37,105 nucleotides of DNA from Promethearchaeota archaeon (GTDB lineage Archaea > Asgardarchaeota > Lokiarchaeia > Sigyniarchaeales > SOKP01), in contig RDOA01000038.1 in the NCBI GenBank assembly GCA_011364925.1, positions 1-37,105 of the forward strand, given 5' to 3'. The translations under genes were made by a program, and so were the position numbers. Shown in pieces: positions 7,366-18,895 of this stretch. The notes beneath the pieces were generated by a model that saw only the letters and a program-made list of their open reading frames with translations, searched no databases and was not told the origin of the DNA. Position 1 is the stretch's first letter. The number at the start of each line of letters is the position of its first letter.

Positions 7366-8481
7366 ATGAAAAGACTAAAAATTTGTTTAGTTTCTTTAAC
7401 AGTTTCTCCTGATAGTGCTGATGGAGAAGCTAAGGTAGTTAGAGCGCTTTTTGAGCACTTAAAACACCAAGGTCATGATGTTACACTAATTACTGGAATG
7501 TGGAATAAAGATTTAGGGGAACCAGACATAATTCAATTTAAACTCATTAAAAGGAGATTTTTTTGGGTTCCTCATTTTTATTATAGAGTAATTAAATTCT
7601 TAAGAAAGAACAACTTCGATATTATTCACGCTAATAGTGCAAAAGCAGCACTACCAATTATTTTAGCAGGACGAACAAAATTCCTATGTACAATTCACGA
7701 TTTCACTCCTTTTGAAACAGAACTTACAACTATCCCAATAGAAAGACTATTAATAAAATTTGTCTCAAAAAGAGCTTCAAAAATTATAACGGTTTCAAAT
7801 TTTGTTAAGACAGAATTCTATCATTATATCCCAAAACTTGATAAAAATAAGATTGTCACTATTTATAATGGTATCGAAGAAAAGTATAAACCATATCCTG
7901 AAGAGGCTCAGCGATTAAAAGAAAGATTGAAAATCAAAGGACCAATACTCTTATATATCGGGAGAATAACTCCTTACAAAGGAGTAAAATATATAATTGA
8001 GGCTTACAAAAGAGTTAAAGCTGAGCTCCCCACAGTAAATTTAGTAATTGGGGGAAAGCCAGATTATTTGATGGAGAAAGAGTATGTTAATTGGAACGAA
8101 TTATATAATGACATACTTTTTACTGGATTTTTACCCGAAGACGAACTTGCTTATTATTTTTCGATGGGTGATATATTTCTTACTTATTCTTCATCATCCG
8201 AAGGATTTGGTTTAACACCCTTAGAAGCGATTGCATGTGGGACTCCGGTTATATGTTCATCACTTACAGTTTATAGAGAAATACTAGGAAACAACGCTAT
8301 TTTTGTTCCCCCTAAGGATTCGATAAAATTAGCTACTAAAATCCTTCATCTTTTAAGCAATAAGGAATTAGGAGAAAGTATGGTAAAAAACGCTCAGACT
8401 TTTATTAAGAAATACAGCTGGAATATGGTTGGGGAAAGATTAGAACAAGTGTATAAAAAATTTCTAAACAGCGAAGATTAA
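7366..8481 (+). CDS. GT4-family glycosyltransferase (GT-B fold)
   Basis: 371-residue glycosyltransferase. The N-terminal Rossmann half contains the usual VRALFEHLKHQGHDVTLIT helix and strand (residues 26-44) and FDIIHANS. The linker YNGI (167-170) opens the C-terminal half with LLYIGRITPYKG (Arg200 and Lys205 contact the nucleotide-sugar phosphates). The retaining-transferase signature EGFGLTPLE with Glu279 and Glu287 precedes AIACGTPVI. The family transfers a sugar from a nucleotide donor onto lipid-linked or protein acceptors on the cytosolic face. Donor and acceptor cannot be read. It lies 37 bases after map and converges with the DUF354 gene (2-base gap). Given the nearby Alg7-like and ribophorin I-like genes, a role in lipid-linked oligosaccharide assembly is plausible inference. 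Confidence 0.93.
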   Translation: MKRLKICLVSLTVSPDSADGEAKVVRALFEHLKHQGHDVTLITGMWNKDLGEPDIIQFKLIKRRFFWVPHFYYRVIKFLRKNNFDIIHANSAKAALPIILAGRTKFLCTIHDFTPFETELTTIPIERLLIKFVSKRASKIITVSNFVKTEFYHYIPKLDKNKIVTIYNGIEEKYKPYPEEAQRLKERLKIKGPILLYIGRITPYKGVKYIIEAYKRVKAELPTVNLVIGGKPDYLMEKEYVNWNELYNDILFTGFLPEDELAYYFSMGDIFLTYSSSSEGFGLTPLEAIACGTPVICSSLTVYREILGNNAIFVPPKDSIKLATKILHLLSNKELGESMVKNAQTFIKKYSWNMVGERLEQVYKKFLNSED

Positions 8482-8483
8482 TT

Positions 8484-9581
8484 TTAAATCTCTTCTTTCA
8501 CATGATTGAAACAAATTTCGTTTGGATTATCAAATTTCATGATTTTTTTTTTAAATGTATCGTTAAATCTATCAGTGCTTGGCTTTGATGATAATATTTC
8601 GATAGACTTATTTACGATATCTTCGATTTCCCTCATATGATTCAAAGGAAAGCCGTTTTCTATTAAAAATTGTTCCTGAGGCGCTGTATCTCCTGGAAAA
8701 AATTCTATGCTTGGTATATTTAAGAGGCTTGACTCACGAACGATTGTTCCACCTCCACTAATTACTAATGCACTATAATAGCATAAATCCACCATATTTG
8801 GCATATACCTAGTAATTATAACGTTTGGATTATCAGCATAACTATGTAATTTCTTTTTAAGAAAATCCTCTTGCTTTTCTGTTCTTACTATTAAGTAATA
8901 CTTTAGATCAGGACATTGGACATATATCGGTGGAAAGAATTGGCTAATTAATGTCTCTTCGGGTTTAAGCTTATTAATAAAATAACTTGCAAAACTCGGT
9001 TCAGTCCGAATAATGACAAATTTTCCTTTTTCTAAGGAATATGTATTTAGAACTTCAGGATTTGGTTCATAATCGTTAAGCCATGCTATTTCATCAATAC
9101 CATTGTACTTTATTAACTTATTTGGCTCTGCGTGAAGTTTCACGTACCATTCTTCTGGAACACATGCAGGAATTATAATCTTATCTAAATATGGAAATAT
9201 CAGCTTACACACAGGAATGTTACGAGGTTCGTCATTATAACCTATCGAAGGAATTTTTAATCCGTAAGAGATCCTCGCACCCTCAACAGATGAAAAGGTA
9301 ACAAAATAATCGGGTTTGAAGTCAGTAACAAATGGAAATAACTCGGTTAAGCGATTTATATAAGTCTCTAATTTATCCTCTAGTTTTTCACCACCATGTT
9401 TTCCTATCTTATGATATTTAATGTGTAAATCATCTAAAATTTGAAATGTTGAATCGTAATCTCTAGCTGTGGTTAATAGTTCTACACCCTCGTTTTGAAA
9501 ATTTCTTATTAAGGACTTGAACATGATTGCTGTTTTTGGTTCTTCAATGTCAATCCAAATTCTTTTATTAGATAAACTCAT
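8484..9581 (-). CDS. DUF354 family protein (GT-B, UDP-GlcNAc 2-epimerase-like fold)
   Basis: 365-residue protein of the DUF354 family, which is widespread in archaea and near polysaccharide genes. Diagnostic blocks: IWIDIEEPKTA (8-18) at the N-terminus, LLTTARDYDST, then YHKIGKHGG (56-64), and a C-terminal half with SGGGTIVRESSLL and PSIEFFPGD, the places where GT-B enzymes bind the nucleotide. The fold is related to UDP-GlcNAc 2-epimerases and to GT-B transferases, but no reaction has been firmly assigned to the family as far as I know. Its ATG start is clear. It is followed 52 bases upstream by a hexapeptide-repeat acetyltransferase on the same strand, suggesting a joint role in making a modified sugar. 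It is not a typical WecB epimerase by length or motif order. Confidence 0.85.
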   Translation of the reverse strand: MSLSNKRIWIDIEEPKTAIMFKSLIRNFQNEGVELLTTARDYDSTFQILDDLHIKYHKIGKHGGEKLEDKLETYINRLTELFPFVTDFKPDYFVTFSSVEGARISYGLKIPSIGYNDEPRNIPVCKLIFPYLDKIIIPACVPEEWYVKLHAEPNKLIKYNGIDEIAWLNDYEPNPEVLNTYSLEKGKFVIIRTEPSFASYFINKLKPEETLISQFFPPIYVQCPDLKYYLIVRTEKQEDFLKKKLHSYADNPNVIITRYMPNMVDLCYYSALVISGGGTIVRESSLLNIPSIEFFPGDTAPQEQFLIENGFPLNHMREIEDIVNKSIEILSSKPSTDRFNDTFKKKIMKFDNPNEICFNHVKEEI

Positions 9582-9633
9582 CTTTCACACAAGATTTGAT
9601 TTTGAAATCAAGATTATAATATTTTATTAATTA

Positions 9634-10389
9634 TCATTTCCAATCTTCAGGTTTTTTCTTTAACAGTTTTGCAGGATTTCCTACAACAATATCGTTCTCA
9701 TTAGTGTTCTTAGTAACTACACTACCTGCTCCAACAATAGTCCCCTTTTTTAATGTAATCCCCGGTAAAATTACTGAATTTGCTCCCAGTGAAACATTAT
9801 CCTCTATTATTGGACCCAGTAGAGCAAATTCTCTTCGCTTCATGTATTTATCATTTGTTAACTTACTGAACGGTCCCATAAAAACATTATTTCCAATTTT
9901 GCAATATAGTGGGATATAAACTCCAGTTTGAATGCTTACCTCCGCTCCTATAACTACATTTCCATCAATTATAGTGTTAGTCCCAATTAAGGAATTATTA
10001 CCAACATTCGTTTTTTCTCTAATCATAACATTATGTCCTGTTTGACATTTTTGACCTATACTCACTTCAGAATAAATTATCGTTCCCGCTCTTATGGTGC
10101 AATCTCTTCCGATTGTTACTAAAGGACTCTGATGTTCTGTGGGTGCTTTTTTTTCTTTTATTATTTGAGATAAATCACCTCGTTGTGGATGACCAATGAT
10201 ACAATTCTCCCCTATATAAGAACCAGCTTGAACCAATGCATTTCCATATATTTTTGCCCCATTGGAAATATAGACATCACTCTCGATCTTTACTCCTTTC
10301 CCTATTGTTGTATAACTATCAATATATGCATTTTCATGAACATTCGCTCTTGGATGTATAAAAGAGAATTTATTTCGTTCTAAATTCAC
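9634..10389 (-). CDS. Left-handed beta-helix (hexapeptide repeat) sugar N-acetyltransferase
   Basis: 251-residue acyltransferase made of [LIV]-G-x-x-x-x repeats nearly end to end (for example IGKGVKI, IGENCII, IGRDCTI, VGNNSLI, IGNNVFM), which form a left-handed beta helix; such enzymes trimerise and use acetyl-CoA. The catalytic-type His is likely in TGHNVMIRE. The closing signature VGNPAKLLKKK is typical of nucleotide-sugar N-acetyltransferases such as WlbB/WbpD, which acetylate UDP-3-amino sugars. The insertion NDKYMKRREFALLGP before the last repeats also fits that subgroup. The start is a GTG; no in-frame ATG occurs before the repeats begin. It neighbours the DUF354 gene on the same strand, so both may modify a UDP-sugar for the cell-surface glycan. 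Serine or maltose acetyltransferases are less likely at this length. Confidence 0.87.
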   Translation of the reverse strand: MNLERNKFSFIHPRANVHENAYIDSYTTIGKGVKIESDVYISNGAKIYGNALVQAGSYIGENCIIGHPQRGDLSQIIKEKKAPTEHQSPLVTIGRDCTIRAGTIIYSEVSIGQKCQTGHNVMIREKTNVGNNSLIGTNTIIDGNVVIGAEVSIQTGVYIPLYCKIGNNVFMGPFSKLTNDKYMKRREFALLGPIIEDNVSLGANSVILPGITLKKGTIVGAGSVVTKNTNENDIVVGNPAKLLKKKPEDWK

Positions 10390-10451
10390 TAAATGATTTC
10401 ACTTTTAACTTATTTTTAGGTGAATAATTTCTTTAAATATTATTAACTTAA

Positions 10452-10745
10452 CTATTTTCCACATTTACAAGGAGAAGAACTACATTTTTTGCATAATTTT
10501 GGATATTTAGCATCTAATGCTTTTTCGAGATCAATACCTAAAATATTTGCAATAGAAACAGTCCAAGCAACGATATCTGATAACTCTTGAGAAATCTTCG
10601 TTTTATCAAGGCTCTTTGAGTTCAAAAGAGTAGCTAATTCTCCAACTTCCTCCACTAACCAGATAAATGTTGAATGAACTCCTCTCTCTAAATCTTTTTG
10701 AAGATAGAGCTCTTTTATTAAATTCTGAAAATCTAATATTTTCAT
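10452..10745 (-). CDS. MazG-type nucleotide pyrophosphohydrolase with Cys-rich tail
   Basis: 97-residue all-alpha NTP pyrophosphohydrolase. The metal-binding pattern is intact: EEVGE (Glu32, Glu33, Glu36) on the second helix and ELSD (Glu54, Asp57) on the third, as in MazG and dCTPase-like enzymes that hydrolyse NTPs to NMP and pyrophosphate. The distinctive part is the C-terminus: Cys85, Cys88, Cys93 and Cys95 in a CxxCxxxxCxC arrangement, which could bind zinc. Small archaeal MazG proteins with such tails exist, but the substrate is unknown; house-cleaning of aberrant nucleotides is the usual suggestion. The ATG start is clear. It lies 31 bases downstream of the Sec61-beta gene on the same strand and is probably cotranscribed. 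Confidence 0.87.
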   Translation of the reverse strand: MKILDFQNLIKELYLQKDLERGVHSTFIWLVEEVGELATLLNSKSLDKTKISQELSDIVAWTVSIANILGIDLEKALDAKYPKLCKKCSSSPCKCGK

Positions 10746-10776
10746 AATTTAGGCATCTAATTTTAAAGAAAAAGGT

Positions 10777-10986
10777 TTAAGTAAATAACCATCCGAAAAT
10801 CCCTAACCAAGCAAATACAACGATTAAAACTAAAGCGACAGCAAAAACCACTGTAGTTATTGGACTAACTTTAATTCCAATCGAGCTATCTTCAAAGAAT
10901 CTCATCAAACCAGCACCCCCCATAGGCATTGGGGCGTTACCACTTCTTCTTTTTTTACGTCTTGATTGAGAACGTTGTGTTGACAT
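10777..10986 (-). CDS. secG: Preprotein translocase subunit Sec61-beta (archaeal SecG)
   Basis: 69-residue small subunit of the Sec61/SecY translocon. It has a basic N-terminus (RSQSRRKKRR), the near-invariant archaeal/eukaryal block GAGLMRFFEDSSIGIKVSP (25-43), and a single C-terminal transmembrane helix (about 45-66) that anchors it in the cytoplasmic membrane with the N-terminus inside. The length is typical. This is a confident identification because the central block is highly conserved. It faces the divergently transcribed ribophorin I-like gene across about 150 bases. Eukaryotic ribophorin I sits in the oligosaccharyltransferase attached to the translocon, so this neighbourhood is suggestive. 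Confidence 0.96.
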   Translation of the reverse strand: MSTQRSQSRRKKRRSGNAPMPMGGAGLMRFFEDSSIGIKVSPITTVVFAVALVLIVVFAWLGIFGWLFT

Positions 10987-11140
10987 TAAATTATGATCAC
11001 AATAATTTACATTTGATTAAATAAAATTAAAACATCAAAAATAATAAGTCTTATCTTGAATTATAAAAAAAAAATTAATAAATTTTTATTAAGGGTATTA
11101 ATTATTGGTAGTTAATTTGAGTAAGAAAAGGCATTTTATC
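10987..11140. promoter_or_regulatory. Divergent control region between secG and the ribophorin I-like gene
   Basis: AT-rich gap of about 150 bases holding the promoters of both genes. For the plus-strand gene the best TATA-like match is TTATAAAAA at about 11061-11069. It would place a transcription start near 11090, upstream of both the TTG at 11105 and the ATG at 11141. No clear operator repeat was seen. Confidence 0.4.
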
Positions 11141-13018
11141 ATGAGAAAAAGAATTAAAATCTTCTTAATATTAGGAATTCTCTCGTTTATTTTTTTATTC
11201 CAATACTTTGGTGGTGATTCCACATATAAATATCAAGATCAAAATGAAAACGAAGTACCAAATATATCGAATAGTTTAGAGGGAGCTGAAAACATTTTAA
11301 TAAATTATATCCTACGCAATACTAATTTAAGTGCCTCGGGTTTGATTAATACGGTAGATACCTTAACTATCTTAAATGAAAACAACAATCCAATTAACTC
11401 AATCCTAATAGGTGTGCCATTAGAGGATGCTAGCAATCTAATTTTCATAAGTGCAAGAAGCGAGGCAAAAAATACTTTAATAGTTGAAAGAAACTATGGA
11501 GTATTGCAAAATTTCGAAATGATAAAAATATATTTTGATGCCCCACTTTTACCATCCCAGGAAAAAACATTATCCGTTAAACAAAGCTACATTAATCATG
11601 TAACCTACGATATAGCTCAGCTCGAAGAAGGAGTAACACAAATAGTAAATTTTAATGGGGTGCTTTGGCCGATATTGCCTTATCGATGTGAAGGAAATAT
11701 AAGATCATTCTATCGCGTACCTAAGGGTATAGAAATATCTGACTATGCAAAATTTGGGGATATGGGCACGGTTGTCCAATTAAACCAACAGGACAGAGTA
11801 TATTATGATCTTGCAAACAGTATAGAATATAATTATCTAGATCCATTGTTAGAAAATTTAAACGGAGCCTATATGACTTATGTTGCTCTAAAAACAACTA
11901 TACAATCCAGTAAAACTGGATTAGAAATTGAAGAAATTAATCGAGAAATTACTGTCTCTCCATGGGGTATCATTAAAAATTTAGAAGAGGTTACTATACA
12001 AAATGTAGGAATTATACAAATAGCATATTTCACATTGAATATACCTAAAGTTGCAAGGAATGTGAGAATTTTCGACGATTTAGGTGAATTGGTTGGAACT
12101 TTGGATACATCTCCGGATGATAATACTTTACAGCTTTTAACTGTCCAACTCAGTCAAAATCGTGTATATCTAATACCCTCTTCAAAGTTTACATTTTCCC
12201 TTGAATATGAATTACAACCTCAAAATTATCTTTCATACAATTGGCTTCAACAGTCCATTTCAATTAATCTTCAAACAACGAGTTATAATTTTCTTATTCA
12301 TCGACAGACAACTAAATTAATTATTGAAGGTTGTAGCACAATTGATTACGCATCATCTCCACCAGAAGCAACTTATAACATTGGTGGTACAAGGGTTCTT
12401 GTTTATAGTTCGGATTTAGTAGGCTCTCTGGAAAAGGATCCCATTTTAATAAAATATACAGTTGACTTATTTGATCTAATTCTTAGACCTATCGTTTTTA
12501 TAATGATTATAGCTGCTTTATGTTCAATTTTTGTGTTGATTATAAAAACCCGAAAGAGAACGGAAGAAGTATCGGAATTCAAAAAAGAGTTCATTCCGTT
12601 GACTGAAATCAGAGAATTTTGTTCTTTATATGAAGAAAAAAATGCTTTAATCTTAGAAATTAGAAAGGCGGAAAGTGAAACAAAACGTAAAAAAATAGGC
12701 AAAAAAACCTATAAAAATCTATTAGCTAAAAATACTGCCAAAATAGACCAAATAAAAGAAGAAATCTTGCCCTTTAAAAAGACATTAATGGAAATAAGCG
12801 AATCTTATAATAATATTATCAAAAAACTTGATGTCTTAGATGCTGAGAGAGAAAGTGTTGACGATAGTTTAAACCTCTTGGAATCTCGGTATAAAAGAGG
12901 GAAATTGCCCTCAAAAGCTGCTTATCAAAAGTTATCAGACGATTTCTTTAACAGAAGGAAGAAAATTGATAGGACAATAGACAAATACATACAACAACTA
13001 AGAAGCTATTTATTATAA
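11141..13018 (+). CDS. Ribophorin I-like type I membrane protein (candidate oligosaccharyltransferase subunit)
   Basis: 625-residue protein from the ATG at 11141; an in-frame TTG at 11105 would add 12 residues. A signal or anchor helix (about 5-24) precedes a large outer domain, a transmembrane helix at about 445-468 (RPIVFIMIIAALCSIFVLII), then a charged, coiled-coil cytosolic tail of about 150 residues. This architecture and length are those of ribophorin I/Ost1. The strongest motif is INREITVSPWGIIKNLEEV (about 266-284), which parallels the R-x-I-x-V-S-x-W-G-x-I segment I recall from human ribophorin I. The tail end (AAYQKLSDDFFNRRKKID) resembles the ribophorin C-terminus. In eukaryotes it supports oligosaccharyltransferase next to the translocon, and homologues are reported in Asgard archaea. 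The next gene follows 20 bases later. The identity is good pattern evidence but not searched. Confidence 0.72.
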   Translation: MRKRIKIFLILGILSFIFLFQYFGGDSTYKYQDQNENEVPNISNSLEGAENILINYILRNTNLSASGLINTVDTLTILNENNNPINSILIGVPLEDASNLIFISARSEAKNTLIVERNYGVLQNFEMIKIYFDAPLLPSQEKTLSVKQSYINHVTYDIAQLEEGVTQIVNFNGVLWPILPYRCEGNIRSFYRVPKGIEISDYAKFGDMGTVVQLNQQDRVYYDLANSIEYNYLDPLLENLNGAYMTYVALKTTIQSSKTGLEIEEINREITVSPWGIIKNLEEVTIQNVGIIQIAYFTLNIPKVARNVRIFDDLGELVGTLDTSPDDNTLQLLTVQLSQNRVYLIPSSKFTFSLEYELQPQNYLSYNWLQQSISINLQTTSYNFLIHRQTTKLIIEGCSTIDYASSPPEATYNIGGTRVLVYSSDLVGSLEKDPILIKYTVDLFDLILRPIVFIMIIAALCSIFVLIIKTRKRTEEVSEFKKEFIPLTEIREFCSLYEEKNALILEIRKAESETKRKKIGKKTYKNLLAKNTAKIDQIKEEILPFKKTLMEISESYNNIIKKLDVLDAERESVDDSLNLLESRYKRGKLPSKAAYQKLSDDFFNRRKKIDRTIDKYIQQLRSYLL

Positions 13019-13038
13019 ACAATATAATTGGTGGCTTA

Positions 13039-13662
13039 ATGAAACCGTGGTTATGTGATATTTTAGCTTGCCCAATAGATAAGTATTACCCTTTAGAGTT
13101 AACCATCTTTTCATACGAAACTATAGAGGATGATTTCAAAAAGATTCTATCAGTTTATGAAGAAAGAGATTTAAATCATATTCAAGCTGAAAATATCATT
13201 GTAATTCAACAGGAAAATGGAGTGATTTATTTAAAAGATGATATTCTTATAGAAAAGAGCCCAATTAATGAGTATATAAATGGAATAAAATCAAGCATCG
13301 AGGAAGTAGAGCGAATATATGATAAATCTCCTTTTGAATTGAGTAAAAAATGTTTTAATATAATCAGAAAAGATATAAAAACTAAAATAGCGAGCTTTAC
13401 AAATTATGATGAATTTGAAAAGCTAAAGAATATATTGCCAGAGCTGTATTTTTTAAATAAGATGAAAACTGAAATTGAAATTGAAACAGGATTGTTGTTC
13501 TGTGCACAATGCAAGAGATGGTATCCAATAATTGAAACAATCCCTCAAATGCTTCCGGATGAGTATAGAAATGAAAAAGAAGAAGTTGAATTCCTCAAAA
13601 CCAATAAAGATTTATTAGATTCTACATTTTTTAATCAAAATTTAAAACCTTACAATTTATAG
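13039..13662 (+). CDS. Trm112-like methyltransferase activator with long insertion
   Basis: 207-residue protein with the split zinc-ribbon of Trm112: an N-terminal half MKPWLCDILACPIDKYYPLE (Cys6, Cys11) and a C-terminal half TGLLFCAQCKRWYPIIETIP (Cys155, Cys158) followed by MLPDE, the classic Trm112 ending. Trm112 binds and activates several S-adenosylmethionine methyltransferases that act on tRNA, rRNA and translation release factor. Typical archaeal versions are about 60 residues; eukaryotic ones are about 125 because helices are inserted between the halves. Here the insertion is about 130 residues and mostly helical, longer than both. The ATG is preceded by GGTGG. It sits between the ribophorin I-like gene and a tRNA gene. 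The call is supported by both zinc halves and by the YPI/IP motif. Confidence 0.8.
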   Translation: MKPWLCDILACPIDKYYPLELTIFSYETIEDDFKKILSVYEERDLNHIQAENIIVIQQENGVIYLKDDILIEKSPINEYINGIKSSIEEVERIYDKSPFELSKKCFNIIRKDIKTKIASFTNYDEFEKLKNILPELYFLNKMKTEIEIETGLLFCAQCKRWYPIIETIPQMLPDEYRNEKEEVEFLKTNKDLLDSTFFNQNLKPYNL

Positions 13663-13675
13663 TCATCATAACCTC

Positions 13676-13777
13676 AGCCCGGTAGTGTAGTGGCCAAGCA
13701 TATGGGGCCTTGAACCCCGGGACCACGGTTCGAAAGTTGTCGAGTCAACTCGATGATCGATATTCCGTGCCGGGCTA
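13676..13777 (+). tRNA. tRNA-Gln (UUG) containing an intron in the T-loop
   Basis: A full cloverleaf can be drawn. Acceptor stem AGCCCGG pairs with CCGGGCT (13770-13776) and discriminator A is 13777. D arm is GTGT/GCAT with G18G19 in the loop. Anticodon stem TGGGG/CCCCG surrounds loop CCTTGAA, giving anticodon TTG for glutamine. The variable loop has four bases. T stem CACGG pairs with CCGTG (13765-13769). The T loop is 36 bases instead of seven because of a 29-base insertion (13735-13763); removing it restores TTCGAAT and a 73-base tRNA. Position 33 is C rather than the near-universal U. CCA is not encoded. It lies 13 bases after the Trm112-like gene, with a T-rich stretch just after it. Confidence 0.9.
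13735..13763 (+). other. Noncanonical tRNA intron at position 59/60 with bulge-helix-bulge fold
   Basis: 29-base intron. A hairpin of nine pairs (13736-13744 with 13749-13757, two or three of them G-U, loop TCAA) is separated from the T stem by a near-canonical bulge-helix-bulge. Bulge AAA is 13733-13735, helix 13729-13732 pairs with 13758-13761 (one U-U mismatch), and bulge ATT is 13762-13764. Cutting after the second base of each bulge gives exactly this intron and a normal seven-base T loop, as expected for archaeal tRNA splicing endonuclease. Confidence 0.8.
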
Positions 13778-13800
13778 TTTTCTAATTTTTTTATATTTTC
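13778..13800 (+). terminator. T-rich terminator after tRNA-Gln
   Basis: Successive T runs (TTTTC, then TTTTTTT at 13786-13792, then TTTTC) directly follow the tRNA 3' end. This matches archaeal intrinsic termination at oligo-T tracts without a needed hairpin. Confidence 0.5.
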
Positions 13801-13912
13801 GCTTTCCTTTAATTTTAGTGCTTTAAAACCATAACTCATCGTTATTATCTCAAATCAATTAAACTAAAACAAAAAATTATATTAGAACAAAATTAATTTT
13901 CTGTAAATACTA

Positions 13913-15313
13913 ATGATTCGGATTTCTAACTTAAATTGGGACATAATTGAGATTTTTTATTTAATAATCATTTTTATTGTTGGCTTTGCTATTACAATGT
14001 TTTTAATCCCCTATGTCATAAAATTTATGAAAAAGAAAGGATTTATTGGGATTGATATCCATAAAAGTTCAAGTCCAGAAGTAGCTGAATCAGGAGGAAT
14101 AGCCTTACTTATTGGAATTGCTGGTACTTCATTATTATTAATTATTTTTTTTCCAAATTTTTTTAATGAAATCTTAATCTTCATTTTAACAGTAGTAGTA
14201 TCTGGGATAATTGGATTTATTGATGATCGAATTAGATTAAAATCGAGATACAAAGTAATCCTGACAATTTTTACTGGTATTCTTATTTTCCTCGCAAATG
14301 TGTCCGGTTTTATTACTATCGAGGCTCCCACAATTCCTTTCCTTGGAAAATTAAGACTAAATATAATATATCCTATCGTTGTTCCGATAATTGTTGCGGT
14401 ATTTGCAAACACTGTTAATATGCTAGAAGGGTATAACGGTGAAGGTTCAGGTACAGCTATAATTGCTTTAATTAGTTTGTTTATTTGCTCAATTTTGTGG
14501 GATTCCGCAGAAGGATTGTTATTTACATTAGTCTCATTAGCCGTTTTAATACCTTTTTATTTTTATAATAAATTTCCCGCCAGACTCTTTCCTGGAGACG
14601 TTGGAACACTTAGTATCGGCGCTATTTTTGCAGGCATCGCTTTATTTGGATCCCTTGAGGCTGCTGTGTTTTGTGCCCTATTGATTCATATTTTTAATAG
14701 CTTTTATGTGTTGTATTCAGTAAAAGGATTTTTCGAGAGTAGTGAAATATTAGGTAATAAAACTGATATCATAATGCTGGAGAATGATCAAATTAAAGCG
14801 TCCGATCAAAAAAGCGCTGCTCTAACACTACCAAGATTGATATTGGCAAAAGGACCTTTAAGAGAACCTGATATAGTTAAGAACATCTATATTATTTCAA
14901 TGGTTTGTGGGTTTATTTCAATTTTAACTACATTATTAATGGTAATAACAGTAAAAAACCAAGATTTTACGATTTTCATCATCCTAGGCTCTATTTTCTT
15001 GGTGATTACGATAATATTACTGTACTTTTTTCCAAGAATTAGAGGTATTGTAATTCTGATGACAATTTTGATTGTGGTTGGCTATATTTATCTTGTTTGT
15101 ATTGAATTATTTATAATGCCATTGAACTTTATAGATATCAACATTTTTGGTTTAATCATTCCAACTAATATCCTCATTTCTTTAATTTTAGTGATCCCAG
15201 GACTTTTGGCTTGGTACTACATCACGATTAAATACTTTTGGTATGAGATAAAAAAAATGAAAAATTCGCTTCAAAGTAATGTTAGTAGTTCGATAGGAGC
15301 AACAGAAATGTAG
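13913..15313 (+). CDS. Alg7/MraY-type UDP-GlcNAc:polyprenyl-phosphate GlcNAc-1-phosphate transferase
   Basis: 466-residue polytopic membrane enzyme of the polyprenyl-phosphate N-acetylhexosamine-1-phosphate transferase family, which loads the first sugar phosphate onto dolichyl or undecaprenyl phosphate. Key blocks are in order: PEVAESGGIALL (55-66) after the first helix, the Mg-binding GFIDD (101-105), NMLEGYNGEGSGTA (169-182) with the conserved Asn and Gly residues, and FPGDVG (226-231) with the catalytic-type Asp229. About ten hydrophobic segments are visible. The NMLEGYNG order resembles eukaryotic Alg7/DPAGT1 (N-x-x-x-G-x-N-G) as well as archaeal AglH. The C-terminus is about 100 residues longer than MraY and contains extra helices. 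It lies in a plus-strand run with the M48 and UbiA genes and probably starts N-glycan assembly. Confidence 0.88.
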   Translation: MIRISNLNWDIIEIFYLIIIFIVGFAITMFLIPYVIKFMKKKGFIGIDIHKSSSPEVAESGGIALLIGIAGTSLLLIIFFPNFFNEILIFILTVVVSGIIGFIDDRIRLKSRYKVILTIFTGILIFLANVSGFITIEAPTIPFLGKLRLNIIYPIVVPIIVAVFANTVNMLEGYNGEGSGTAIIALISLFICSILWDSAEGLLFTLVSLAVLIPFYFYNKFPARLFPGDVGTLSIGAIFAGIALFGSLEAAVFCALLIHIFNSFYVLYSVKGFFESSEILGNKTDIIMLENDQIKASDQKSAALTLPRLILAKGPLREPDIVKNIYIISMVCGFISILTTLLMVITVKNQDFTIFIILGSIFLVITIILLYFFPRIRGIVILMTILIVVGYIYLVCIELFIMPLNFIDINIFGLIIPTNILISLILVIPGLLAWYYITIKYFWYEIKKMKNSLQSNVSSSIGATEM

Positions 15314-15378
15314 TTTAATAGAGCTTTTATTTGTTATTTAAGTTGGATATATATAATTAAGGATTAGTTGATGTAAAT

Positions 15379-17928
15379 TTGAAAATATTCATTCGTTTCG
15401 GTCTATTATTTTTATATTTATTAATTTCCCTCGGTTCTGCGACAGTTTCATATTTTTTAATATGGAATGTTAGATTACCAGAACTTTTAAATGACTGGAC
15501 TTTCTATGTTCTGCTTATTTTTTTCTTATTGTCAATTGAAGAATTATACCGTTGGGCAAAAAATGGCAAAAGGAGCGAATTGAGTGATTTTGTCGCTATT
15601 ATATTCTTCTTTTTTCTTCTATTCTTTTTTTCAAAAGATATTTTAACTTCGATAATGGGTGCCTTTTCAATCTATTTATGGTTTGGAGTGTACGAGTTAA
15701 AAGATTACCCCGTATTAAATAAAATCTTAACAATATCTCTAGTAACATATAATATAATATTTGTTTCAGGAATAGTTTCAAATGTTTTAGGTAATCCAAT
15801 TGTTATTAACACTGCTTTTTCGTTTTCTTTTTGGATTATCCTTATATTAGGTTTTATTCTATTTGGTCGAAAGTACATAGTTATATGGAGATTCATGTCT
15901 CCTGAGTACTTGACATTATTTCTATATATTATTGCTTGGTTAGCCATTGTTTTTGTTACTGAATACACTCCTCTTAACTTTATTTCGGGTAAAGCCTTTC
16001 TTTTTGACTCTTTTTCAATTTGGGAACTTTTCATGAATGTATACATAGTTTTAATAGTAATAAATTGGATCATTTACTTTATTTCAGGGCCGATTTTGGA
16101 TTTCATGCTTGGGATTAAGCCATTAAAGGATAAAAAATTATTAAATTTAATAGAAAAAGTAAAATTAGATATTGGAATAAAAGGAAAAGTAAAGGTAGGG
16201 ATAGGAAACTATCCAATTCTAAATGCCATGGCATACGGTTCGCTTTTTGATAAACGGATTGCTCTTATCGCAGAACACTACAATTTAGTACCAGAAGATG
16301 AGGTTAAAGGTATTGTTGCTCATGAATTGGCACATACGAAAGGAAAACATACTTTAATCTTGACTTTTATTACATCGGGAGATTTGGTTATAAGAATGCT
16401 ATTTGGTATTCCTGCCACATACTACGATTATACTTTCGGGAACCCTCAGCTTCCATTTATTTTATTTCTTCTTTTAAACTTACTCATTTACATTATTTTG
16501 TTTATGTTTGTTAGAATTTTAGAAGGGAAAGCTGATCAAAAAACAAAAAGAATTGGGTATGGGAAGGAGCTGGTAAAAGCGCTTTATAATTTAGAGAGCT
16601 TTTACGCTACTGGGCGTGAATTTGGATTAAATACAATGCTTTTATCTGAAGAAAAAATTACAAAAAATAATGAAATTTTAAACTATTTAGAAACAGCAGA
16701 TTATATTAACAAATCCATAATTAAACCAAAGAGGGGATCTTTGGTAAGTAATATAATAAACTCTCATCCACTTACATACCACAGAATTGCTGCAGTACTA
16801 GATGATTCGTTAAAACCAACAAAAGAAATGCTTCTACCTTTTTTATGCTTAAAAAGATCTTACCAAAAAAAATACGCTAAATTATTTGATGTGGCACGTA
16901 GTAAATTTAAAGAGATCGCTAGCGAGAAATTTAGAGAGTATTTCAACATTAAAGATATCTCTGCTTATATGAACGCAATAAAGAGGCTTGAACTTTATAA
17001 ATTTGAACTCAACCAGGATTTTATATTTATTCATAAGATTACAGGTGAAGTGATCGTAGGAAAATTGGAAAACGTACGATTAATAGATGATGCCTGCGAA
17101 ATTGACGAATATATTGTTAGAGAATTTAAAACTGATAAAAAAGTATTCCTGAGTTCTTCGGAATATTCAAAATCTCATGTTTCACTAAAAGATGATTATT
17201 TTATGGAAAAATTGGGAACCTTGAAGCTTACAGATATCTCCTTAGGTTCAGATCAAAAGAATTCAAAATATATTTTTTCGGATAAAAATGGACAGAAAAT
17301 TTTAAAAAATTTAAAGAAGACAAAATTGCCAAATCCGATATCATTTATAAAATCATTTGCCGATAAAGATGTTTTTTTCACAACGAAAGGTGACACTCTC
17401 GTACTAAGGTGTACAAATGTTCAAATTTCAGATAATTTTAAAGATTCAGAGCTATTTCTCGAAAATTCTCCTGTGAATGAGAAGGCTGACAAGTTCCGAT
17501 TCAAATTTAAAGATTTAATAATAAAACCTAAAAACATTTATATTAATGTAAAAAGAAATGAAAAGGGGTTTAAAACAGAATCTAAAATTTTTGAATGGTT
17601 GATAGAAAAACAACTAAGGACCTACATCTATTTAAAAAAACCTGTCAATAACATACAAATAGGTTATATTCAAGAAATTCATTTTGTTGTTGAAAATTCT
17701 AAGAAAAAACAAAATGGAGGAGAATATGAAAGAGGTAGTTATATTATCATTAAAAATATTTTCGGTGAAACTCAAAAAATAATATACAAATCATTAGAAA
17801 CCGTATCCTTCGAATATATTACGGGGAAAATTCAAAAAAAGTCAGAATCGAGTATTTTTAGCAAGTTAGGATATGTATTGTTGAAAAAATTCAACCCAGA
17901 AAAGATAATTTACCTTAACAAACTTTAA
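15379..17928 (+). CDS. Large membrane M48-family zinc metalloprotease
   Basis: 849-residue protein. The N-terminal about 240 residues carry about seven hydrophobic segments. The M48 catalytic motif VAHELAHTKGKH follows, with His315-Glu-x-x-His319 as zinc ligands and catalytic Glu316. Two more membrane segments lead to LEGKADQ (about 381-387), whose Glu is the third ligand, and INSHPLTYHRI near 460 matches the family's downstream His-Pro block. HtpX and Ste24 enzymes are about 300-450 residues; here a further about 380 residues follow, predicted soluble, strand-rich and Lys-rich, with no recognised domain. The family performs membrane protein quality control or CAAX-type processing. The start is TTG at 15379; the ATG just upstream is closed at once by a stop. 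It stands 28 bases before the UbiA gene. Confidence 0.87.
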   Translation: MKIFIRFGLLFLYLLISLGSATVSYFLIWNVRLPELLNDWTFYVLLIFFLLSIEELYRWAKNGKRSELSDFVAIIFFFFLLFFFSKDILTSIMGAFSIYLWFGVYELKDYPVLNKILTISLVTYNIIFVSGIVSNVLGNPIVINTAFSFSFWIILILGFILFGRKYIVIWRFMSPEYLTLFLYIIAWLAIVFVTEYTPLNFISGKAFLFDSFSIWELFMNVYIVLIVINWIIYFISGPILDFMLGIKPLKDKKLLNLIEKVKLDIGIKGKVKVGIGNYPILNAMAYGSLFDKRIALIAEHYNLVPEDEVKGIVAHELAHTKGKHTLILTFITSGDLVIRMLFGIPATYYDYTFGNPQLPFILFLLLNLLIYIILFMFVRILEGKADQKTKRIGYGKELVKALYNLESFYATGREFGLNTMLLSEEKITKNNEILNYLETADYINKSIIKPKRGSLVSNIINSHPLTYHRIAAVLDDSLKPTKEMLLPFLCLKRSYQKKYAKLFDVARSKFKEIASEKFREYFNIKDISAYMNAIKRLELYKFELNQDFIFIHKITGEVIVGKLENVRLIDDACEIDEYIVREFKTDKKVFLSSSEYSKSHVSLKDDYFMEKLGTLKLTDISLGSDQKNSKYIFSDKNGQKILKNLKKTKLPNPISFIKSFADKDVFFTTKGDTLVLRCTNVQISDNFKDSELFLENSPVNEKADKFRFKFKDLIIKPKNIYINVKRNEKGFKTESKIFEWLIEKQLRTYIYLKKPVNNIQIGYIQEIHFVVENSKKKQNGGEYERGSYIIIKNIFGETQKIIYKSLETVSFEYITGKIQKKSESSIFSKLGYVLLKKFNPEKIIYLNKL

Positions 17929-17956
17929 TTAGATTGGTTCTGTTTAAAAATTTATA

Positions 17957-18895
17957 ATGACCACGAAAATAAGAAGTATTTTCCACCTCTTAAGAATTAG
18001 ACAATATTATAAAAATGTATTAATCTTCGTCAGTCTTTTCTTTAGTTATAAGATTTTTCATCACACACTTTATTTGCCATTAATCTTGGGGTTTATATTA
18101 CTATGCTGTGCTTCCTCATTTAATTATATAATAAACGATATTATAGATATAGAATCTGATAAGCAACATCCGGAAAAAATAAAAAAAAAACCATTAGCAT
18201 CAGGAGAACTCCCCGTATATTTCGCAGTTTTACTCTTAGTAATCATCGTAGGAATTATTGTCCTTTCATTCATTTTCTTAATTCCAAACCTTGGCTTTCT
18301 AATAATGCTTATACTTGTGATATTAACAGGCCAGCTCTATAACCATTTCTTTAAGAATTACGCGTTCATTGACATATTAGTTTTATCGACGGGCTATCTT
18401 TGGAGAGCGTTAGCTGGAGTTGTTATAATCGATGACATCGTTTCTCCATGGCTATTTCTAGCAATTTTCGAAATTGCTATGTTCTTAAGCATCGCTAAAA
18501 GGAGGGGCGATTTGTTGTATCTTGGAAAAGACATAGCCATTGAACATAAAAAGGTATATGACAAATACTCTGTTAAACTTTTAGATCAATTCTATGTTAT
18601 AATTGCAGCTTCATTGTTTATGACTTACTCGCTTTATCTAATAACTAAATTTTTTATTATCGAAGGAGCAATAATAGTTCCAGACTTGCAAGTATTTATG
18701 GTAATTTTCACTATTCCTATTTCTCTCTACATAATAATGCGGTTTATGTATTTAACTTCGTCGAAACCAGAAATAGCAAGGAGAACTGAAAAAGTATTTT
18801 TCGATAAAGGGATCATTATTTCAGGATTGTTACTCTTTCTAATATTGTTTACTGCATATTATTATGATATCATTATAGGATTGATTGAAGGTTAA
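17957..18895 (+). CDS. UbiA-superfamily prenyltransferase, decaprenyl-phosphate phosphoribosyltransferase-like
   Basis: 312-residue polytopic membrane enzyme with about eight or nine helices. The first aspartate motif is NDIIDIESDKQHPEK (60-74) followed by KKPLASGELP; the HP-x-K-x-x-x-P-x-x-G extension is the mark of the branch that includes mycobacterial Rv3806c. That enzyme transfers phosphoribose from PRPP to decaprenyl phosphate. The N-terminal RIRQYYKNVLIF also parallels the R-x-x-Q-W-x-K-N-x-L pattern of that branch. The second region holds AKRRGDLLYLG in place of the usual second aspartate motif. If right, the product would be a lipid-linked pentose donor for surface glycans. Archaeal lipid-making or menaquinone UbiA enzymes are the alternatives. 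It overlaps the convergent M28 gene by four bases and follows the M48 gene on the plus strand. Confidence 0.75.
   Translation: MTTKIRSIFHLLRIRQYYKNVLIFVSLFFSYKIFHHTLYLPLILGFILLCCASSFNYIINDIIDIESDKQHPEKIKKKPLASGELPVYFAVLLLVIIVGIIVLSFIFLIPNLGFLIMLILVILTGQLYNHFFKNYAFIDILVLSTGYLWRALAGVVIIDDIVSPWLFLAIFEIAMFLSIAKRRGDLLYLGKDIAIEHKKVYDKYSVKLLDQFYVIIAASLFMTYSLYLITKFFIIEGAIIVPDLQVFMVIFTIPISLYIIMRFMYLTSSKPEIARRTEKVFFDKGIIISGLLLFLILFTAYYYDIIIGLIEG

Follow-up and report, generated by a model that had tools for sequence, protein, structure and literature searches.

A candidate ancient archaeal N-glycosylation cluster that joins ribophorin I to genes predicted to begin lipid-linked oligosaccharide synthesis

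We analysed a window of 37,105 bases, which is the whole of one contig (C47; RDOA01000038.1) of a 3.92-Mb Asgard archaeal genome. It holds a gene for ribophorin I (Ost1), known in eukaryotes as an accessory subunit of oligosaccharyltransferase (OST), close to genes predicted to start the synthesis of lipid-linked oligosaccharide (LLO) for N-glycosylation. An original prediction, made from the letters of the sequence, had described this stretch as a eukaryote-like glycosylation and translocation island. Pfam and NCBIfam searches recovered all of the genes that it named at their positions, together with MazG-like, Trm112-domain and M48 genes that it had not mentioned. The genes form two runs that diverge out of a 154-base AT-rich gap, with Sec61-beta, MazG, the acyltransferase and DUF354 on the minus strand and ribophorin I, Trm112, the Alg7-type transferase, M48 and UbiA on the plus strand:

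7366-8481, plus strand: GT4-family glycosyltransferase, lying beyond DUF354 (PF00534, 2e-36)
8484-9581, minus strand: DUF354 protein with a GT-B fold, a candidate second-step glycosyltransferase (PF04007, 6e-48; AlphaFold2 (AF2) model with pLDDT 93.6; fold search)
9634-10389, minus strand: hexapeptide (left-handed beta-helix) acyltransferase (PF00132, 7e-35)
10452-10745, minus strand: MazG-like nucleotide pyrophosphohydrolase (PF03819, 1.6e-9)
10777-10986, minus strand: Sec61-beta (PF03911, 7.6e-11, above cut-off; NF002318)
10987-11140, no strand: AT-rich divergent intergenic region between Sec61-beta and ribophorin I, 154 bases (from the sequence)
11141 (ATG start, 625 residues) or 11105 (TTG start, 637 residues) to 13018, plus strand: ribophorin I/Ost1 (PF04597, 9e-15)
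13039-13662, plus strand: Trm112-domain protein with a large insert (PF03966, 7e-8)
13913-15313, plus strand: Alg7/AglH/MraY-family polyprenyl-phosphate sugar-1-phosphate transferase (PF00953, 2.8e-28; DPAGT1, 1.7e-11)
15029-15268, plus strand: C-terminal membrane module of the Alg7-type transferase, residues 373-452 (2e-6 in a small search)
15379-17928, plus strand: M48 metalloprotease membrane protein, a local neighbour (PF01435, 9e-16)
17957-18895, plus strand: UbiA-family protein resembling lipid-phosphate phosphoribosyltransferases, a local neighbour in family f1 only (PF01040, 2.5e-18)

The 625-residue protein is ribophorin I. It scored 55.1 bits against PF04597 (cut-off 25), and a profile of 48 Asgard proteins aligned over positions 52-603 with residues 29-604 of human OST1 (2e-50) and also matched yeast Ost1 (1e-34). 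The first nine fold matches of its AF2 model (pLDDT 88.6) were human OST1 (9e-31), yeast OST1 and the MK-D1 domain structure 8WHN, to which its C-terminal cytosolic domain is related by sequence (E=2e-35) and with 47% identity in the structural comparison. On the strength of this similarity to the Lokiarchaeon MK-D1, we regard the source as an archaeon of the Lokiarchaeia type. AF2, hydropathy and 8WHN all pointed to the expected architecture: an N-terminal hydrophobic segment, a beta-rich ectodomain, one membrane helix and a cytosolic helical bundle. Profile and fold agree in placing the protein inside the ribophorin I family, outside which the original prediction had allowed that it might fall. 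Our analysis confirms ribophorin I in Asgard archaea, which was already published: a 2023 Nature survey named Ost1 and Ost3 as the non-catalytic OST subunits that had earlier been described from prokaryotes, namely Asgard archaea (PMC10307638), and both the 8WHN structure and a ribosome pull-down of the MK-D1 OST1 domain have appeared, so that ribosome binding is known for that domain (PMC11417166). In the archaeon studied here, ribophorin I is predicted to be a subunit of an STT3 complex that would assemble with SecY.

To place the locus among its relatives, we compared 80 loci (the window and 79 others) from 23 Asgard families, labelled f1, f2 and so on, and counted as neighbours genes within about 10 kb of ribophorin I. 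The acyltransferase was a neighbour in 11 of the 23 families, a full-length Alg7-type transferase in nine, Trm112 in nine (eight by sequence clusters) and DUF354 in seven; a GT4 gene was present in f1, f2, f3, f12 and f26. Neighbour order and strand varied among families, and therefore proximity has been retained, not one frozen block. Each neighbour count had a binomial chance below 1e-5 in a model of 20 kb in 3.5 Mb with six copies per genome, which is a guide only because the families are related. We found that the Alg7-type, DUF354, acyltransferase and Trm112 genes cluster with ribophorin I more than expected by chance. At 207 residues, the Trm112-domain protein of the window is much longer than the usual ~60, and such proteins are repeated neighbours of ribophorin I and Alg7-type genes. 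The association reaches beyond Asgard archaea. One Brockarchaeote contig carries an acyltransferase gene diverging from ribophorin I, which is followed by a sugar-nucleotide dehydrogenase-like gene, DUF354, a small membrane protein and an Alg7-type gene, an arrangement resembling that of the Asgard Borrarchaeum; within a few kb of ribophorin I at 20 further TACK loci, we found Alg7-type genes in three, acyltransferases in three and GT4 genes in five. The conserved linkage that had been proposed for comparison is borne out, with ribophorin I and LLO genes together across Asgard families and into TACK archaea.

Some observations count against the proposed N-glycosylation cluster. The Alg7-type matches near ribophorin I in f12 and f17 were to a small partner-like membrane protein only (weakly in f12), and we dropped both families, so that the count of nine rests on clusters of full-length proteins. 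No Alg7-type gene was found around ribophorin I in f8, f10, f11, f13-f16, f21, f23, f25, f27 and f29, in stretches some of which were short. STT3, which the original prediction had suggested looking for nearby, is encoded on another contig, and the stretch around it holds none of the cluster families tested. Other observations speak for the cluster. DUF354 and the Alg7-type gene are also paired away from ribophorin I in f9, f10, f14, f23 and f29, and outside Asgard archaea in Bathyarchaeota, Culexarchaeum, Geothermarchaeum, Nitrososphaeria and Brockarchaeota, and the genome studied here has one gene each for PF00953, STT3 and DUF354.

The translocon part of the original prediction fared differently. 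Sec61-beta, which retains its C-terminal membrane anchor, was present in 213 of 228 Asgard genomes and adjoined ribophorin I only in f1, f2 and f3. Much of the surrounding 15 kb is also kept in these three families, with an M24 gene resembling methionine aminopeptidase and a roadblock gene among the retained neighbours, and the Sec61-beta/ribophorin pair may therefore be plain local synteny. We rejected Sec61-beta as a conserved part of the cluster, and rejected UbiA, MazG and M48 as core members, which are confined to f1 or to f1 and f3 (MazG to f1 and f3); the clustering of all four may be no more than local synteny. The glycosylation reading of the island is strengthened by gene identity and conserved linkage; its translocon reading is reduced to a lineage-specific arrangement, and the adjacency that had been taken as a sign of a pre-eukaryotic association is not shown to be ancient. 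An association of Asgard Ost1 with ribosome and translocon has been published from structure and pull-down, not from gene order (PMC11417166). Among the local neighbours, UbiA is nearest to the decaprenyl-phosphate phosphoribosyltransferase model NF008977 (6e-48), at 163.7 bits against a cut-off of 234, which falls short of the model's threshold. The M48 (HtpX-like) protein has 849 residues with a long C-terminal region, and its position is kept in f1. At 1269-1871 on the minus strand the window also encodes a 200-residue gelsolin-repeat protein (PF00626, 7e-5), an Asgard signature protein.

Ribophorin I itself proved widespread. The Asgard profile detected it in 220 of 228 Asgard genomes and all 62 genera, compared with 128 of 228 by Pfam alone; its apparent absence from f28 was an artefact of the Pfam profile, since the Asgard profile detects the f28 copies. 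In TACK genomes selected for carrying DUF354, an Asgard-only profile matched proteins of Bathyarchaeota (3e-94 to 5e-39), Culexarchaeum (6e-31), Nitrososphaeria (9e-28) and Brockarchaeota (3e-27); seven euryarchaeal genomes gave one borderline match (5e-4). A TACK-only profile matched residues 87-607 of human OST1 (7e-22), and the TACK and Asgard profiles aligned by hhalign over 535 columns (6.6e-61). An even draw of TACK genomes gave ribophorin I matches in 226 of 398, using a profile that contains TACK rows; its E-values therefore lack independence, and the weakest matches should be read with caution. Full-length TACK genes include L242:9249-10988 (Brockarchaeota), those at L235, L236, L238, L240, L241, L243, L244 and L246, and those at L279-L298. 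One metagenome-assembled genome, G229, has two closely similar ribophorin I genes (L236:8902-10644 and L237:6616-8349), each with an Alg7-type gene ~1.4 kb upstream, either a strain mixture or a duplication. In a quick maximum-likelihood tree the TACK rows were all split off from the remainder (SH-aLRT 99), and eukaryotes fell within the Asgard rows; the tree was rooted only for display and has several long branches, and we make no claim for the exact position of eukaryotes. This pattern is consistent with vertical inheritance from an ancestor of TACK and Asgard archaea. Probably that ancestor already had Ost1 linked to LLO-initiation genes, and eukaryotes later received both. These results suggest that ribophorin I and its pairing are older than Asgard archaea, and that eukaryotes inherited rather than invented them. 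We found no literature report of Ost1 outside Asgard archaea, including Bathyarchaeota, Thaumarchaeota and TACK archaea, in a search that did not cover preprints and most subscription journals, and a 2016 hidden Markov model search of prokaryotes gave no promising candidates for non-catalytic OST subunits (PMC4973528).

The neighbouring Alg7-type gene, the only PF00953 gene of its genome, has DPAGT1 (1.7e-11) as its best solved relative by search score in the PDB, where MraY scored 2e-8. In f6, f7, f10, f14, f17, f20, f26 and f29 a small hydrophobic protein of 82-112 residues is encoded next to the Alg7-type gene or to DUF354, and its C-terminal segment often shows the pattern W-L-x-x-W and then K-x-Y/F-F. 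This segment also forms the C-terminus of the 440-520-residue enzyme in f1-f4 (residues ~373-452 in the window; 2e-6 in a small search, a match between hydrophobic segments that needs a structural check). The small protein is apparently fused to the C-terminus of the Alg7-type transferase in f1-f4, and the analogy of Alg14 suggests that it might serve as a tether for DUF354. Examples of the separate protein are L121:11576-11851, L133:11588-11842, L154:5695-5937 and L162:5565-5816, with 15029-15268 as the counterpart in the window.

Alg13/14 are missing from most Asgard archaea, in which another enzyme may carry out the second step (PMC8993221). Considering that DUF354 sits with the first-step enzyme in these archaea, is often beside the Alg7-type gene and is nearly mutually exclusive with Alg14, we propose it as a candidate for this second sugar transfer; this is our leading hypothesis, held at a little under even odds. 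The AF2 model has a confident GT-B fold, and profiles relate the protein to processive diacylglycerol glucosyltransferase, 3-deoxy-D-manno-octulosonic acid (KDO) transferase and 2-epimerases. Across 50 sequences, R40, R77, R103, D163, R192 and R233 do not vary at all, and D117 and E283 hardly vary. DUF354 occurs in 159 of 228 Asgard genomes, Alg14 in 39 of 228 and both in four. A match to PF04101 (0.007) fell below cut-off, giving no homology to PF08660/PF04101, and hhalign gave no direct kinship to Asgard Alg14-Alg13 (0.1%). We also considered the PF04101 protein on contig C81 of this genome as Agl24 and rejected it, as its sequence is PseG-like, a reading for which we take the motif IGLGHIYRS to be the mark.

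Several results weigh against this assignment. The closest solved folds to DUF354 are UDP-GlcNAc 2-epimerases, with glycosyltransferases ranking lower, and an earlier survey reported that few of the catalytic residues of glycosyltransferases are conserved in DUF354 (PMC4520260). The exclusion between DUF354 and Alg14 is strong by genome (Fisher P 1e-17) and not significant by family (0.07), and the contrast is mostly between clade f28 and the rest. Both genes occur in f10, and f15, f16 and f19 (for example L088-L091) have essentially neither. DUF354 is also found apart from Alg7-type genes in methanogens (L179-L222, Methanosphaera and Methanobrevibacter), where it perhaps has another role. The activities of DUF354 and of the Alg7-type transferase are predicted ones. 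Of related interest, f15, f16 and f19 carry ribophorin I, f19 with another PF04101 protein, and Alg14-Alg13 was not found within ~1.5 kb of the Alg7-type gene in f28.

The epimerase-like fold leads to an alternative in which DUF354 is a nucleotide-sugar enzyme, a 2-epimerase relative that makes a special donor together with the acyltransferase, and the second step falls to another glycosyltransferase such as GT4. Besides the fold matches, hhalign related DUF354 to the genome's own epimerase at 92%; sugar-nucleotide dehydrogenase or epimerase genes adjoin DUF354 in some families; and the nearest NCBIfam model to the acyltransferase, matched below its cut-off, is the NeuD/PglB/VioB type, with NeuD/PglB-type enzymes modifying nucleotide sugars. 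The 2-epimerase family has a conserved catalytic histidine, whereas no histidine column reached 75% in the 50 DUF354 proteins, which sets DUF354 apart from ordinary 2-epimerases. Elsewhere the genome encodes a true PF02350 epimerase, and near-exclusivity with Alg14 suits a transferase better. We regard a donor-making DUF354 as unlikely, at roughly one chance in a handful.

Doubts about the cluster as a whole take two forms. The module might make a surface polysaccharide or glycolipid, with archaeal ribophorin I employed otherwise, for example in ribosome docking only. Polysaccharide clusters also contain phosphoribosyl-type UbiA, acyltransferase and MazG genes, and STT3 is unlinked; on the other hand, the genome has no second PF00953 gene, eukaryotic ribophorin I is an OST subunit, and ribophorin I and the Alg7-type gene share neighbours across families. 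AglH, moreover, begins N-glycosylation in Sulfolobus (PMC8993221). We consider such a product quite improbable. Still less credible, to the point of being very improbable, is plain synteny by descent in one lineage with no joint function. The unrelated M24 and roadblock genes retained in f1-f3, and the local Sec61-beta, MazG, M48 and UbiA, are what it would predict, but ribophorin I, Alg7-type, DUF354, acyltransferase and Trm112 genes occur together in 7-11 Asgard families in varied orders, and partly in TACK archaea, far beyond chance, which makes it already unlikely for the core.

Together, these data favour, with somewhat better than even confidence, an N-glycosylation cluster of ancient archaeal origin in which the initiation of LLO synthesis is linked with an accessory OST subunit. 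The Alg7/AglH-type enzyme, whose family is clear, would transfer HexNAc-phosphate from a UDP-sugar to dolichyl phosphate on the cytosolic face. DUF354, a soluble GT-B protein, would add the second sugar in place of Alg13/14 or Agl24, and perhaps stays close to the transferase through the small membrane protein, which in f1-f4 is apparently part of that enzyme. GT4 and the acyltransferase may extend or modify the sugar or its donor. After flipping, STT3/AglB would attach the glycan at the sequons of proteins as they emerge from the SecY/Sec61 channel, in an OST in which ribophorin I would hold its beta-rich ectodomain outside the cell and dock the ribosome through its cytosolic four-helix bundle; the Sec61-beta neighbour would be a later, lineage-specific arrangement. 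More tentatively, and at rather less than even odds, Ost1 may have been an OST subunit of the TACK-Asgard ancestor, encoded alongside a self-contained LLO-initiation module using DUF354, later replaced by Alg13/14 in some Asgards and in eukaryotes.

Accessory OST subunits count as signature proteins linking eukaryotes with Asgard archaea. The detection of full-length Ost1 in more than half of the TACK genomes sampled pushes back the origin of this subunit, and its function becomes open to testing in other archaea. Specialists may be surprised by Ost1 across TACK archaea and by its old tie to LLO initiation. The range of Ost1 including TACK archaea, the neighbour set across Asgard families, and DUF354 as a second-step candidate were not in the papers searched. 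DUF354, a GT-B family with no earlier connection to N-glycosylation, is a candidate for a stated gap, the enzyme that replaces Alg13/14 in most Asgards (PMC8993221).

Compared with known systems, DUF354 resembles the second-step GlcNAc transferases Alg13/Alg14 and Agl24 in sitting with the first-step enzyme and in its GT-B fold. It differs in family, in having no profile match to Asgard Alg14-Alg13 and in its near-exclusive distribution, so it may work like them but is no member of those families. Non-hydrolysing UDP-GlcNAc 2-epimerases (WecB/MnaA) are its closest solved fold, yet DUF354 has ~14% identity to them and lacks their conserved histidine. The Alg7-type enzyme shares the PF00953 family with Alg7/DPAGT1 and archaeal AglH, with DPAGT1 as its best solved relative, and differs from them in its C-terminal extension, whose relative in other lineages is a small membrane protein with a gene of its own. 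Sec61-beta is alike in PF03911 and NF002318, and its adjacency to ribophorin I is specific to f1-f3. Ribophorin I matches human RPN1, yeast Ost1 and the MK-D1 protein in full-length profile and fold, single membrane helix and cytosolic four-helix bundle; unlike known OST1, its gene here adjoins LLO-initiation genes, and the range of the family now extends to TACK archaea.

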